Assembly: GCA_903884235.1 (NCBI GenBank)
Contig: CAISEB010000004.1
Span: forward strand, 1 to 64,000
From: an uncultured Pseudomonadota bacterium
GTDB taxonomy: Bacteria > Pseudomonadota > Gammaproteobacteria > Steroidobacterales > Steroidobacteraceae
Direction: 5' to 3'
DNA: 64,000 bases
Position 1 is the stretch's first letter, and each line of letters begins with the position of its first letter. The notes under the pieces were generated by a model. That model was given only the letters and a program-made list of their open reading frames with translations. It made no database searches and had not been told where the DNA came from. The position numbers and the translations under genes are program-made. This document shows positions 53,362-57,817 of the stretch, piece after piece.

Positions 53362-54321
53362 TCAGCGTTCGTGCTCGACGAAGCTGCGGACCACCCGGGA
53401 CCAGGCGCGGGCGATGTTGCGGCGGTTGTAGCCACCGCCGCCGACACCCAGCAGCCGGCCGTCGCAGAGCCGGTCGGCAATGCCGGCCAGGCGGGCCGCG
53501 GCGTGGGCGTGGGCTTCCTCGGTGTAGCGCAGGTGCGTGATCGGGTCGCCTTCGAGACTGTCGGCGCCGCATTGGAACACGATGAACTCCGGCCGGCGTG
53601 CCTCGAGGTAGGCCTCGATCCGGTCCCAGGCCGGCATGAATGCCGTGTCGCCCGAGCTCGGCGGCAGCGGGATGTTGAGCTTGGTCCCGACCGCCCTGCC
53701 CCGCCCCGCCTCGTGCGCGGCCCCGGTGCCGGGGAACAGGAACCGCCCATCCTCGTGGATGTCGGCGAAGGCGACGTCGGGATCGTCCTCGAACGCGTAG
53801 AACACGCCGTCGCCATGGTGGGCATCGATGTCGACGTAGGCGATCCGGGTCAGGCCCCAGCGCCGGCGCAACTGCTCTATCACGATGCCGGAGTCGTTGA
53901 ACACGCAGAAGCCCGAGGCATGCGCGCGCGAGGCGTGGTGGAGGCCCGCGATCGGCACGAACGCGCGCCGCGCGCGACCTTCCATGATCGCCTCGGTCGC
54001 GACCAGCGTCGCGCCGACGACGTGGCTCGCCGCGTCGTAGACCCCCTTGTAGGCCGGAGTATCACCCGCGTCGAGGTAGCCCTGGCCGTGCAGCGAGCGC
54101 TCGGCGACCAGCGACACGTAGGCCGGCTCGTGGAAGCTCTCGAGTTCCTCGCGCGTGGCGAGCCGGGGCGCCGCGAGCGCGACGCGCCCGTCCAGCTCGT
54201 CGGCCTTGAGTTCGCGCAGGAACACGTCGTGCCGGTCCGGTCCGAACGGGTGGCCTTCGCCGAAGCCGTAGCGGGCGATCTGCTCGCCCGCCACCAACAA
54301 CGTGTCACGTCGCTTCGCCAT
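53362..54321 (-). CDS. Histone deacetylase-family (HDAC/AcuC-like) amidohydrolase
   Basis: This 319-aa zinc hydrolase of the arginase/deacetylase fold shows the catalytic histidine pair in LHHASRAHASGFCVFND, the metal-binding YVDIDAHHGDG, the second metal aspartate in CGADSLEGDP and GVGGGGYN. Bacterial members deacetylate polyamines, acetoin-pathway proteins or other small amides; the substrate is unknown. It starts 12 nt after the radical SAM stop, so it probably belongs to that operon. Confidence 0.88.
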   Translation of the reverse strand: MAKRRDTLLVAGEQIARYGFGEGHPFGPDRHDVFLRELKADELDGRVALAAPRLATREELESFHEPAYVSLVAERSLHGQGYLDAGDTPAYKGVYDAASHVVGATLVATEAIMEGRARRAFVPIAGLHHASRAHASGFCVFNDSGIVIEQLRRRWGLTRIAYVDIDAHHGDGVFYAFEDDPDVAFADIHEDGRFLFPGTGAAHEAGRGRAVGTKLNIPLPPSSGDTAFMPAWDRIEAYLEARRPEFIVFQCGADSLEGDPITHLRYTEEAHAHAAARLAGIADRLCDGRLLGVGGGGYNRRNIARAWSRVVRSFVEHER

Positions 54322-54333
54322 CGACCGAGCTTA

Positions 54334-55788
54334 TCAGCTTAGCTCCGGGGGGGCAGGCCGCAGCGGCACCGCACGGCCACCGAATGCCCGCTCGACCTCG
54401 GCCCGGCGCTCCGCCAGCAGCGCCGCGCGGCCGTCCCGGTACAGCAGGTTGAACGACTCGAACGGCACCAGCCGGCCGTCCGGCTGCACCAGGTGCACGC
54501 AGGACTTCTTCATCGCGCGGACGTCGAAGTTGACCGCATCCATGAACGCCATCACGAGCACGCGGAACACGTCCCGGTAGCCGAGCGACGGCGGCGCCTC
54601 GACCGACGGCAGGCAGCACATCAGCGAGGCGAGCCGCGCCGCCTGCGCCTCCGGTCCGGCGTCGGTCGAGAACACCCGGAACACCTCGCGGCGCAGATCG
54701 GGATCGGATTCGAACACGATCGTGTTGCGGGGACCGGCCAGCAACACCTCGGGGCCGACGAACCGAGTCAGCGGCACGACGCCAGCCGGCGTCTTGATCG
54801 CGTAGCCCATCGCGAGCGCATCGGGATTGCACGGCACGGGCACGATGTCCTCCGGCCTGAACATCGGCGTCTGGGCGAGAATCGCCTGGCGCACCTCGCC
54901 GAGGGTGAGGCGCCCCGCCGGCACCCCGTCGGTGCGCCCCGCATACTGCACCGGCTGCAGCGTGACCCCGCGCACGCAGGGCTGCGCCGCGGCGAACTCG
55001 ATCAGCCGCCCGATCTCGCCGTCGTTGACGCCCCGCGCCACCGTGACGACGAGCGTCGTCGACAGGCCGACCGCGTTCAGGCGCGCGAGGGCGTCGTGGC
55101 GCACGCGCCGCAGGTCGGCGCCGCGCAACCGCATCAGCGGCTCCCGCTCCAGCGAGTCGAACTGCAGGTAGATCTCGAATGCGGGCGCGTACGCGGCGAG
55201 CCGTTCGGCGAAGCCGGCCTCGCGCGCGATGCGCACGCCGTTCGTGTTCATCATCAGGTGACGGATCGGGCGGCGCTTGGCCGCATCGAGGATCGCGAAC
55301 AGCTCCGGATGCTCGGTGGGCTCGCCACCGGACAGCTGCACGACGTCCGGCTCGCCCTCGTTGGCGACGATCGCATCGAGCATGCGCTCGATGGTCGCCA
55401 GGTCGCGATGCTGTCCGGCGCGATGGGGCCCGGAATCGGCATAGCACACGGGACAGGCGAGATTGCAGGCGTCCGTGACCTCGAGGATCGTCAGGCAGGA
55501 ATGCTGCATGTGATCCGGACACAGCCCACAGTCGTATGGGCAGCCCCAGTGCATGTCGGTGTTGAACCGCAGCGGCATCTCCGGCGGCTTGATCCACGCT
55601 TCCCGCCCGCTGCGCCAGTAGGCGGCGTCCGGCGCGACCAGCACCTTCGAGGTGCCATGCTCCGGGCACCACTTGTACATCCAGACCTCGCCGTCGCGGA
55701 TGACGTGCTTGGCCTCGATGCGGCGCAGGCAGTGCTCGCACAGCGACAGCGTCTGGTCATAGTAGAGGTAAGGTCGCACGCGTGGCAC
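54334..55788 (-). CDS. Radical SAM protein of the MJ0619/Tes-like family
   Basis: This 484-aa protein has the AdoMet [4Fe-4S] motif C108-N-L-A-C112-P-V-C115. Before it lies a cysteine-rich block (C83, C87, C90, C98 in WGCPYDCGLCPDH through HSC) and an N-terminal CxxC/CPEHG element (C17, C20, C41), as in archaeal MJ0619-type proteins. Characterised members of this family (tetraether synthase) join lipid alkyl chains by C-C bonds, so a lipid substrate is a reasonable guess but unproven. QLSGGEPTEHPELF follows the cluster. It begins 1 nt after the Lgt-like stop. Confidence 0.85.
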   Translation of the reverse strand: MPRVRPYLYYDQTLSLCEHCLRRIEAKHVIRDGEVWMYKWCPEHGTSKVLVAPDAAYWRSGREAWIKPPEMPLRFNTDMHWGCPYDCGLCPDHMQHSCLTILEVTDACNLACPVCYADSGPHRAGQHRDLATIERMLDAIVANEGEPDVVQLSGGEPTEHPELFAILDAAKRRPIRHLMMNTNGVRIAREAGFAERLAAYAPAFEIYLQFDSLEREPLMRLRGADLRRVRHDALARLNAVGLSTTLVVTVARGVNDGEIGRLIEFAAAQPCVRGVTLQPVQYAGRTDGVPAGRLTLGEVRQAILAQTPMFRPEDIVPVPCNPDALAMGYAIKTPAGVVPLTRFVGPEVLLAGPRNTIVFESDPDLRREVFRVFSTDAGPEAQAARLASLMCCLPSVEAPPSLGYRDVFRVLVMAFMDAVNFDVRAMKKSCVHLVQPDGRLVPFESFNLLYRDGRAALLAERRAEVERAFGGRAVPLRPAPPELS

Positions 55789-55789
55789 T

Positions 55790-56542
55790 TCAGCGGCTCC
55801 GCTGGCGCGCGATGCGCGTGGCGAACCAGCCGGCGCCGGCGAGGCCCGCCCACTGGATCGCCGACAGGCCCGCGATGCGGTCGATCGCGATGCCGCCGGC
55901 GGCGGTCGCGCCGAATGGCGGCTTCAGGAAGTCGAGCGCGACGCGCAGCAGGCAGTAGCCGAGCAGGAACGCGTTGAACGCACGGCCCTTCGACCACGCC
56001 GCGCGCGGGCGACACGCGACCCAGAGCACGACGACGCCGGCGATCTCGATGAGACCCGTCGGGTAGCGGGGCACGCCGTCGCCGTAGTCCCAGCCGTAGC
56101 CCGTCCCAGTCGGGCTGCCATAGGTCATGTCCCAGATTCCGGCCAGCTGGCAGCCGACCCGACCGATCACGAGGCCGATGGCGAGGGCTGGCACCCACGC
56201 GTCGCCGGTCGGCGTGCGCCAGCCGGTGAGCGCCTTGCCCACCTCGGTGCCGAGCGTACCGCCGAGGAGCGCGCCGAGCACGCTCTTGCCGGAGATCCAG
56301 CCGGCAGCGCCGTGCCCGACGACCCAGGTCAAGCTGGCGAGCGCGTGCAGCAGCACGGCGCCGGCGGCGGCGCCGAACAACGTGCATGCGAACAGGAGCG
56401 CCAGGTCGGCGCGGGCAAGCAGGACCGGGTCGGCGCGACGACCGCGGAGGTAGACGCGCGCACCGACGAAGTACGCGATCCAGTCGGTCATCGCATGCGC
56501 GAAGGGGGTCGACTGCGTGAACGCGAGAAGTGTGCCGGTCAT
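55790..56542 (-). CDS. Divergent prolipoprotein diacylglyceryl transferase-like membrane protein
   Basis: This 250-aa protein has about seven hydrophobic segments and a recognisable Lgt core: GRVGCQLAG (127-135) in place of GRxGNFIN, followed by GVPRYPTGLIEI, which resembles the Lgt signature end. The essential HGG-type motif of true Lgt is replaced by GKSVLGALLGGTLGTE, and the conserved Asn after GRxG is Cys131. It is therefore unlikely to be the housekeeping Lgt. It abuts the radical SAM gene and follows two small membrane-protein genes. ATG 56542 is chosen. Confidence 0.8.
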   Translation of the reverse strand: MTGTLLAFTQSTPFAHAMTDWIAYFVGARVYLRGRRADPVLLARADLALLFACTLFGAAAGAVLLHALASLTWVVGHGAAGWISGKSVLGALLGGTLGTEVGKALTGWRTPTGDAWVPALAIGLVIGRVGCQLAGIWDMTYGSPTGTGYGWDYGDGVPRYPTGLIEIAGVVVLWVACRPRAAWSKGRAFNAFLLGYCLLRVALDFLKPPFGATAAGGIAIDRIAGLSAIQWAGLAGAGWFATRIARQRSR

Positions 56543-56562
56543 GGATCGAGGGTCGCGGCGAT

Positions 56563-56799
56563 TTAATCGCCGCGGAACACCCTGTAGATCGCGTACAGCC
56601 CGCCGACCCCGGCTGCGGCGCAAGACAGGCCGAGCACGGCCAGCAGCATCATCCCGTCTGCGCCGGACGTCACGTTCACCACGAACAGGGTCGCCCCGCA
56701 GGCCGTGAACAGCACCGTGGGGATGGCGACCAGGAGCAGCAGGATCGTCACGACCATGCTCGGCCGGCGCCGCCGCGGGGGCTCGATCGTCGCGGTCAT
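56563..56799 (-). CDS. Small two-helix membrane protein (copy 1)
   Basis: This 78-aa protein has an Arg/Pro-rich cytoplasmic start and two transmembrane helices (about residues 15-42 and 50-72). Its first helix contains LFTACGATLF and its second ends in GGLYAIYRVFR. The same pattern recurs in the neighbour upstream (FLFTACGVLF and GGAVLYGLERIRR), so the two are paralogues. No known domain is recognised. It ends 20 nt before the Lgt-like start. Confidence 0.65.
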   Translation of the reverse strand: MTATIEPPRRRRPSMVVTILLLLVAIPTVLFTACGATLFVVNVTSGADGMMLLAVLGLSCAAAGVGGLYAIYRVFRGD

Positions 56800-56871
56800 T
56801 CCGACTCCTGCGCCCTGGCGAGGTGCCGCGGGCTGCAGCGCGAGTCTAGCAGTCCGGTCGGCACGCCCCGC

Positions 56872-57117
56872 TCACAGGCGCCGGCGGATCCGCTCGAGGC
56901 CATACAGCACGGCGCCCCCGGCCACGGCGCAGGCGAGCGCCGCCAGCGTCTCGCCGCGATCGACGCCACTGCCCGCGAGGCCCGCGATCGAGAACAGGAC
57001 GCCGCAGGCGGTGAACAGGAACACGAGGAACGCGACGCAGCCGAGCGCGATGGCGGCCAGCATGCGGCGGAACGTGCGCCGCGGGTCCGGCGGTGGCGAG
57101 TCCGGATCAGCCGCCAT
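56872..57117 (-). CDS. Small two-helix membrane protein (copy 2)
   Basis: This 81-aa protein has a Pro-rich N-terminus with an RRTFRR basic patch and two predicted transmembrane helices. The shared FTACG motif sits in helix 1 and a GGAVLYGLERIRR end follows helix 2. It is a paralogue of the 78-aa protein 72 nt downstream. The cysteine of FTACG is kept in both and could be a functional residue. No function is known to me. Confidence 0.6.
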   Translation of the reverse strand: MAADPDSPPPDPRRTFRRMLAAIALGCVAFLVFLFTACGVLFSIAGLAGSGVDRGETLAALACAVAGGAVLYGLERIRRRL

Positions 57118-57168
57118 GCGCGCGCCTGCGGCCCACCGCCCTGCCGGGAGCGGCTTGCCCCGCGCGGA

Positions 57169-57594
57169 TCAGGCGCAGGATGGGCAGTCTCCGGCCGCCC
57201 TGCAGTCGGCCACGCCCTGGGTCCGGATCCAGCGGCAGGCCGCACCGGCCGTCGGATGGAAATGCACGTGGATCTCCGGCTGGAACAGGCCCGCCAGCCG
57301 CTTGATCTCGGCGACGACCGCCGGATCGGTCGCGACGCTCGCGATCACGAGATCGGGATGGGTGTAGCGGGACCCGATCTGCAGCGCCGCGATCAGCATC
57401 GCGTTGTCCTCGCAGACCGTGAGGGACTCGACGCGGGAGTAGTCGGCGATGCAGCAACGGATCTCGTCGAAGCGGGGATCCGAGCAGACCTCGCGCAGGC
57501 TCGCGACCAGGTCCTCGCCGGTGACCAGACCGGAGTATCGCCGCACGAGGCAGCGCGATTCCCAGACCAGTTCGTACGGCAACTCGGTCCCCAT
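57169..57594 (-). CDS. Hypothetical STAS-like soluble protein
   Basis: This 141-aa protein begins MGTELPYELVWESRCLVRRYSG and looks like the STAS/SpoIIAA-like fold found in short proteobacterial hypotheticals (alternating strands and helices, FDEIRCCIADYSRVESL). It ends in a cysteine-containing tail (CPSCA). The start is uncertain: ATG 57594 has a G-rich stretch directly before it, and the frame is open for 50 further codons. It is the first gene before the small membrane proteins on the same strand. Confidence 0.55.
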   Translation of the reverse strand: MGTELPYELVWESRCLVRRYSGLVTGEDLVASLREVCSDPRFDEIRCCIADYSRVESLTVCEDNAMLIAALQIGSRYTHPDLVIASVATDPAVVAEIKRLAGLFQPEIHVHFHPTAGAACRWIRTQGVADCRAAGDCPSCA

Positions 57595-57749: not shown

Positions 57750-57817
57750 TACAATCCCGGGAGTAGGTGAATATCGCAAAACGGCGATACCCAACCTCCT
57801 AAAGAGCGAGTGAGGAA
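57750..57817 (+). promoter_or_regulatory. ettA promoter element and structured mRNA leader
   Basis: TACAAT at 57750-57755 is a good -10 with a weak -35. The leader contains a TATCGC/GCGATA stem (57772-57777 with 57784-57789). GGAG (57760-57763) can pair with CTCC (57796-57799), while CCTC (57795-57798) can instead pair with the Shine-Dalgarno GAGG (57812-57815). Two exclusive folds are therefore possible, which would allow control of ettA translation. Confidence 0.45.

Follow-up and report, generated by a model that had tools for sequence, protein, structure and literature searches.

In a stretch of 64,000 nucleotides from an uncultured Steroidobacteraceae bacterium (assembly GCA_903884235.1, contig CAISEB010000004.1, positions 1 to 64,000; hereafter the window), we describe a conserved gene module that encodes one or more small two-helix membrane proteins with a cysteine in the first helix, a membrane protein related to Lgt, and a radical SAM enzyme related to tetraether synthase (Tes) and to TrsS. 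These three kinds of gene are grouped far above chance. In the window the module lies within six open reading frames (ORFs), all on the minus strand from 57594 down to 53362 and separated by 51, 72, 20, 1 and 12 nucleotides, in agreement with a first-pass annotation that had described a same-strand run of five to six genes with gaps of 1-72 nucleotides. The four genes of the module are the following.

56872-57117, minus strand: small two-helix membrane protein of 81 residues, FTACG in helix 1; paralogue of the 78-residue protein
56563-56799, minus strand: small two-helix membrane protein of 78 residues, FTACG in helix 1
55790-56542, minus strand: Lgt-like membrane protein of 250 residues (Pfam LGT); R128 and R200 kept, L89 at the catalytic His position, C131 where Lgt has Asn
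54334-55788, minus strand: Tes/TrsS-like radical SAM enzyme of 484 residues; CxxC...CxxH zinc/rubredoxin-type site, N-terminal CxxxCxxC cluster, radical SAM CxxxCxxC, private CCLP motif at 391-394

The same annotation had recognised the two small proteins as paralogues sharing FTACG, the Tes-group cysteine pattern of the radical SAM protein, and an Lgt-like core with altered catalytic motifs in its neighbour, and all three observations hold. Pfam assigns the 250-residue protein to LGT (E 2.5e-11, 43.8 bits against a cut-off of 24.9) and the 484-residue protein to Radical_SAM, with an N-terminal HMPTM zinc ribbon; scans of the two small proteins and of a 141-residue protein encoded beside them gave nothing over the cut-off. 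An ordinary Lgt is encoded on another contig of the same genome.

Recurrence of the gene pair

The sample consisted of 90 radical SAM loci, namely 80 named loci (the best 80 of 121 candidates) and 11 further genome stretches, less two duplicates, plus the window. The duplicates (L021 and L022, on the same contigs as L036 and L041) were removed before counting, and near-identical metagenome-assembled genomes were left unmerged in the counts. An Lgt-like gene is present at 84 of the 90 loci, on the same strand at 81 and on the opposite strand at three (L047, L070 and L084); at 31 loci it overlaps the start of the radical SAM gene by 4 nucleotides, by the starts chosen. The six remaining loci comprise two whose contig breaks off a short way upstream of the radical SAM gene (L042 and L082) and four with ample flank (L025, L026, L031 and L030).

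The association was also examined from the side of the Lgt-like protein. Genome searches with the radical SAM, Lgt-like and small-protein queries shared a sample of 369 genomes of the class, and scored the best 4, 7 and 15 candidates per genome, respectively. The Lgt-like profile gave eight matches of at least 190 bits, all eight of which adjoin a radical SAM gene; the next match scored 110.6 bits (G060, a genome without a radical SAM match) and the remainder at most 93 bits. Rows of this profile had been contributed by the window and by all but one (G074) of the seven other matching genomes, which inflates their scores and leaves the absence elsewhere unaffected.

A radical SAM homologue occurs in 11 of the 369 genomes, the window's own included, and in one of 59 close relatives, where it is of a methyltransferase-associated type (L031). 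The pair is found in records named Burkholderiales, Rhodocyclales, Methylotenera, Methylococcaceae and Myxococcaceae, and on a plasmid of Persicobacter (Bacteroidota); named genera with module loci include Roseateles, Pelomonas, Massilia, Collimonas and Dechloromonas. Distance matrices for the two enzymes are correlated (r 0.83 over 78 loci, with none of 2000 permutations as high), to which shared organism history may contribute.

These distributions bear on whether the gene run is a coincidence. Coincidence does describe a deacetylase gene and, largely, the 141-residue gene at the two ends of the run, and the module of the Lgt type is present in none of the 59 close relatives searched. As an account of the whole run it is nonetheless extremely improbable, being contradicted by the recurrence of the pair across distant taxa and on the Persicobacter plasmid. 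The check proposed at first pass was a search of neighbourhoods for the pair and for small two-transmembrane proteins, and the homologues proved not to be scattered without a conserved neighbourhood: beside the 84 of 90 loci and the eight of eight reverse matches stand 88 of 89 matches to the small-protein profile, described below.

The three proteins and their relatives

Short ORFs, from one to several in number, accompany most pairs; each encodes two hydrophobic stretches, the first of which contains a cysteine. Since our first selections had used the cysteine pattern, we also chose ORFs by position only: a helix-1 cysteine is present in 30 of the 33 small two-helix ORFs that end no more than 45 bp from the start of the Lgt-like gene, and in 19 of the 99 found elsewhere in these loci. 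Of the ORFs lying directly downstream of the radical SAM gene, four of four have it; between the two enzyme genes three of seven do, the other four having a cysteine just past the stretch scored. A profile of 59 small proteins searched against 91 loci (the Persicobacter locus L152 added) found 89 ORFs, 88 of them near the module on the module strand. Matches fall in 69 of the 91 loci, 25 of which lie outside the profile, some of these being close kin of profile rows. Across the 369 genomes a small-protein profile search is noisy, with matches in 105 genomes at 0.01, and several genomes had supplied profile rows; the eight best matches all adjoin a module, as does rank 11 (G263), but rank 9 (in the same genome, on another contig) and rank 10 (G174) lie elsewhere. 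That search gave no match in G074 and G132, though both have the pair.

The only invariant column of the small proteins is the cysteine (59 of 59, in a selection that had required a cysteine), and mean column identity is 17%. Relative to it, position -2 holds G, S or T in 58 of 59 sequences, position -1 is mostly Leu or Ala, and position +1 is Gly in 39. Net charge averages +1.2 for the segment ahead of helix 1, -0.6 for the loop and +1.0 for the tail. Pairs for which no small-protein match was found are those of L047, L070, L084, L152 (Persicobacter), L027, L029, L040, L108 and some others, and in several of these the contig is cut or the frame falls beyond the limits of the search.

Column counts for the enzymes are based on Lgt-like proteins of 200-330 residues (79 of 84) and radical SAM proteins of 430-540 residues (88 of 90); the alignments A1, A2 and A3 took in 53 of 79, 37 of 87 and 59 of 87 of the sequences offered. 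The predicted structure of the window's Lgt-like protein has a mean predicted local distance difference test score (pLDDT) of 91.4, and its only fold match with E below 0.001 is E. coli Lgt (5azb, TMq 0.58). As in that enzyme, the equivalents of Arg143 and Arg239 (Arg128 and Arg200) are invariant in all 79 sequences. In contrast to Lgt, the position of His103 in the HGGL motif is occupied by V in 67, L in 10 and I in 2 of the 79 (L89 in the window), and the GRxGN signature is changed to GRxGC, the equivalent of Asn146 being Cys131 in 79 of 79. The protein also scores far under the NCBIfam cut-offs for Lgt. In those parts of the E. coli study that concern these residues, Arg143, Arg239 and His103 are reported as essential, and none of five changes at His103 complemented (PMC4728403).

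The window copy differs from its family at four near-invariant positions: it has Y160 where 78 of the 79 sequences have H, I165 where 78 have Y, Y149 where 75 have W and V63 where 74 have K. It may be specialised or decaying. H16, D138 and the segment 138-156 are missing only from the Lgt-like proteins of L047, L070 and L084, which are of Myxococcaceae type and have no small-protein match; the joint absence is only suggestive, as it concerns one lineage and L152, L027, L029, L040 and L108 break the pattern. The same three loci have a fatty-acid hydroxylase gene nearby, and their Lgt-like proteins read GRxGC...GGCCYG or AGCCYG. The G060 match noted above (L136, 1411-2235) encodes an Lgt-like protein with GRIGC...CCYG and adjoins a desaturase-like gene, by our reading of its ORFs. 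Seven loci (L086, L090, L093, L094, L095, L097 and L101) have a lipoprotein-like gene of the Sel1 type interposed between the Lgt-like gene and the radical SAM gene; the Sel1 match of the one representative fell just under the cut-off.

For the radical SAM protein, a sequence search of solved structures gave a single strong match, the tetraether synthase of M. jannaschii (7tol, E 6.3e-63). Its predicted structure (mean pLDDT 81.4, weak at about 341-400, the region that holds CCLP) likewise found 7tol first, with TMq 0.76, 28% identity in the structure alignment and E 2.9e-35. The metal-site cysteine and histidine residues printed by Lloyd et al. for GDGT-MAS, in the portion of that paper drawn on here (PMC9433317), agree with the family: as in Tes/GDGT-MAS (MJ0619; 7tol, 7tom), C-x2-C-x20-C-x2-H, the three cysteines of the N-terminal cluster and the radical SAM C-x3-C-x2-C are identical in 88 of 88 sequences. 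Two candidate histidines for the N-terminal cluster (93 and 96) are both invariant among the 88.

Other features set the family apart from Tes. By alignment arithmetic, the equivalent of Met439 (position 413) is V in 76, M in 11 (the window included) and I in one of the 88, and the equivalent of Tyr459 (position 433) is F, M, I or L; the relevant part of Lloyd et al. prints both residues as completely conserved in 1000 archaeal homologues, with M439A still active (PMC9433317). The family has, in addition, its own CCLP motif, the Lgt-like partner and the small proteins. Within NCBIfam the best match is TrsS (NF045646; 316 bits, below the cut-off of 490), followed by Tes (249 bits, below the cut-off of 450), so that by the NCBIfam standard the protein is a relative of TrsS and Tes and a member of neither. 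The earlier appeal to known family chemistry was overstated, in that TrsS outscores Tes, both scores are under cut-off, and Met439 and Tyr459 are not kept.

C391-C392 are present in 85 of 88 sequences, and the three exceptions (L025, L026 and L031) have a methyltransferase gene and DUF547 in place of the Lgt-like gene, together with a related radical SAM gene that lacks CCLP; the small-protein profile search gave no match at these three loci. CCLP is kept in Persicobacter, where the Lgt-like partner is present, and not in the aligned relatives L030, L153 and L154. Judged by these alignments, the motif tracks the Lgt-like partner. Selenocysteine, considered on account of in-frame TGA codons first reported in G194 and G263, was rejected: the stops of L028 (G263) follow the conserved region and L023 (G194) has none inside it, and they were taken as ordinary gene ends.

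A second branch of Tes-like radical SAM genes with a methyltransferase is made up of L025, L026, L031, L153 and L154, with DUF547 in four of the five; CcdA and a disulfide oxidoreductase are encoded near the radical SAM gene in Mycolicibacterium (L153), and a redoxin in Haloarcula (L154). By ORF reading, a pair of distant Tes-like radical SAM genes at L030 (7634-11689) shares its run with genes for short-chain dehydrogenases and for an aminotransferase-like protein, and a phosphopantetheinyl-transferase-like gene is close by; this run is perhaps a natural-product cluster.

Two alternatives to lipid chemistry are best weighed against these comparisons. The radical SAM enzyme might mature a peptide, modifying the small protein (for example by a thioether or C-C link at the Cys-Gly region) before the Lgt-like protein anchors or lipidates the product, as in ribosomal peptide pathways. 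Short, fast-evolving, repeated ORFs do adjoin the radical SAM gene, and the peptide maturases SkfB and SuiB are among the fold matches that follow Tes. We nevertheless regard this as decidedly unlikely, because the Tes match is far better (E 2.9e-35 against 1.9e-9 for a peptide maturase), the small proteins are membrane hairpins without a visible leader or core, and no conserved protease or exporter was seen among the neighbour-gene clusters listed. The enzyme might instead carry out non-lipid radical chemistry, as in the branch that resembles TrsS or those paired with a methyltransferase, and the Lgt-like fold would then have been co-opted for a new reaction on a small substrate. The higher TrsS score, the altered C-terminal site and the methyltransferases that accompany related radical SAM proteins in L025, L026, L031, Haloarcula and Mycolicibacterium would fit such chemistry, but an integral partner with the Lgt fold and small membrane proteins point to the membrane, and we consider it very unlikely.

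The inserted stretch and its flanking genes

The two ends of the gene run in the window are occupied by genes outside the module.

57169-57594, minus strand: 141-residue protein, no Pfam match over cut-off; inside the inserted stretch, not a conserved part of the module
53362-54321, minus strand: HDAC-family deacetylase of 319 residues (Pfam Hist_deacetyl); flanking gene, outside the module

The 141-residue protein has a homologue at one other locus only (L079; 33%, E 3e-11), just downstream of the module on the opposite strand. As for the deacetylase, which had at first been counted as part of the system, an HDAC match occurs at none of the other 89 radical SAM loci, while each of the 14 other genomes in the genus search has an orthologue. 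In 13 of these congener stretches the SHMT, HDAC and ABC-F genes are grouped, and in the fourteenth (G002) the HDAC gene adjoins the ABC-F gene, as judged from coordinates. Being absent from the other 89 loci and next to the ABC-F gene in 14 congeners, the deacetylase was ruled out as a component of the module; it belongs to an older SHMT-HDAC-ABC-F block, and its position in the gene run is incidental.

None of the radical SAM, Lgt-like, small and 141-residue proteins has a match in the same 13 congener stretches. In the best alignment (congener L113) the match to the window DNA ends at 54343 and restarts at 57817. From this break and from the module-free adjacency of HDAC and ABC-F genes in congeners, we conclude that the radical SAM, Lgt-like, small-protein and 141-residue genes are an insertion relative to the congeners. 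The insert does not stand out in base composition (0.714, compared with 0.67-0.71 in the flanks and the window). A mobile or plasmid origin was considered and rejected: nine of 72,556 plasmid records match at 1e-30, and an Lgt-like gene is present in one of three matching records inspected.

Proposed function of the module

We tentatively favour, at rather low confidence, a reading in which the Lgt-like protein lipidates the cysteine of the small protein and the radical SAM enzyme modifies that lipid. Two essential residues of Lgt are kept, its acceptor-side motif is changed and a candidate acceptor cysteine is encoded next door, which together suggest glycerolipid transfer to the small protein. 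The Lgt-like protein would transfer a diacylglyceryl or related glycerolipid group to the conserved helix-1 cysteine, which is surrounded by a glycine-rich [GST]-x-C-G sequence and lies nearer the predicted periplasmic side of a hairpin whose tails are positively charged. The radical SAM enzyme, whose nearest solved relative, Tes, joins sp3 carbons of lipid tails, may act on the lipidated product or its lipid: either that lipid or a partner phospholipid would be activated at an unreactive C-H, and a new C-C or C-S bond would be formed there. The predicted product is an altered, perhaps tail-joined, proteolipid. Of the first-pass interpretation, a conserved system of these three kinds of gene is supported, and the suggestion that membrane lipids or a lipid-anchored small protein may be modified is plausible.

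Several observations weigh against the proteolipid reading. His103, reportedly indispensable in Lgt, is absent from the Lgt-like family, and NCBIfam ranks TrsS over Tes for the radical SAM protein. The small proteins as a family do not have the small residue at -1 that is expected of a lipobox: seven of 59 fit, both window copies included, and -1 is usually Leu. Pairs without a small-protein match imply that the small protein, unless missed, is not the substrate at every locus. Finally, Tes acts in the cytoplasm-facing region of the membrane. Lgt works from the periplasmic side, according to the part of the E. coli study that treats its mechanism (PMC4728403), so that access to a single lipid would be needed from both faces of the membrane.

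The chief rival is the tailoring of free membrane lipids, in which both enzymes would act on phospholipids, for example to join or functionalise the ends of acyl chains, and the small proteins would be scaffolds or regulators of the membrane enzyme. For both enzymes the closest relatives of solved structure act on glycerophospholipids, some pairs have no detected small protein, and bacterial Tes homologues have been proposed, in the section of Zeng et al. that deals with them, for the synthesis of branched glycerol dialkyl glycerol tetraethers (brGDGTs) (PMC8941075). Neighbouring genes add an MFS-acyltransferase cluster at 39 of the 90 loci (one representative scanned) and the fatty-acid hydroxylase at L047, L070 and L084, although these fit the proteolipid reading as well. 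Free-lipid tailoring leaves unexplained why a single cysteine is kept while the small proteins drift and occur in one to several copies, and we hold it to be somewhat unlikely.

A more specific form of the proteolipid reading, offered as an unlikely one, is that these tiny hairpin proteins receive a glycerolipid on an intramembrane cysteine from an Lgt relative without the histidine, after which the radical SAM enzyme would join or functionalise the tails, possibly linking the two paralogues or yielding a membrane-spanning protein-lipid conjugate.

Both enzymes belong to known superfamilies; for the gene system itself, we found nothing similar described. A literature search for the pair of Lgt-like protein and radical SAM enzyme found no description, most subscription papers lying outside that search. 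In the parts of the papers accessible to it, Zeng et al. count 456 homologues of Tes in bacteria, for which they suggest a part in making brGDGTs, and name no partner gene (PMC8941075); Lloyd et al. point out that homologues occur in bacteria not known to produce biphytanyl chains, again with no partner gene named (PMC9433317). Bacterial Tes homologues are likewise listed, in portions of two papers, as candidates for membrane-spanning lipids without tested function (PMC8941075, PMC11868695), and in the text available from PMC7641849 radical SAM and Lgt-type enzymes occur in unrelated passages.

In named genera, one branch of Tes-like enzymes can now be linked with a particular Lgt-like partner and with small proteins that are candidate substrates or helpers, and the question of what Tes-like proteins do in bacteria becomes addressable through a set of three genes. 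If the proteolipid reading is true, the module would represent a new form of protein lipidation.

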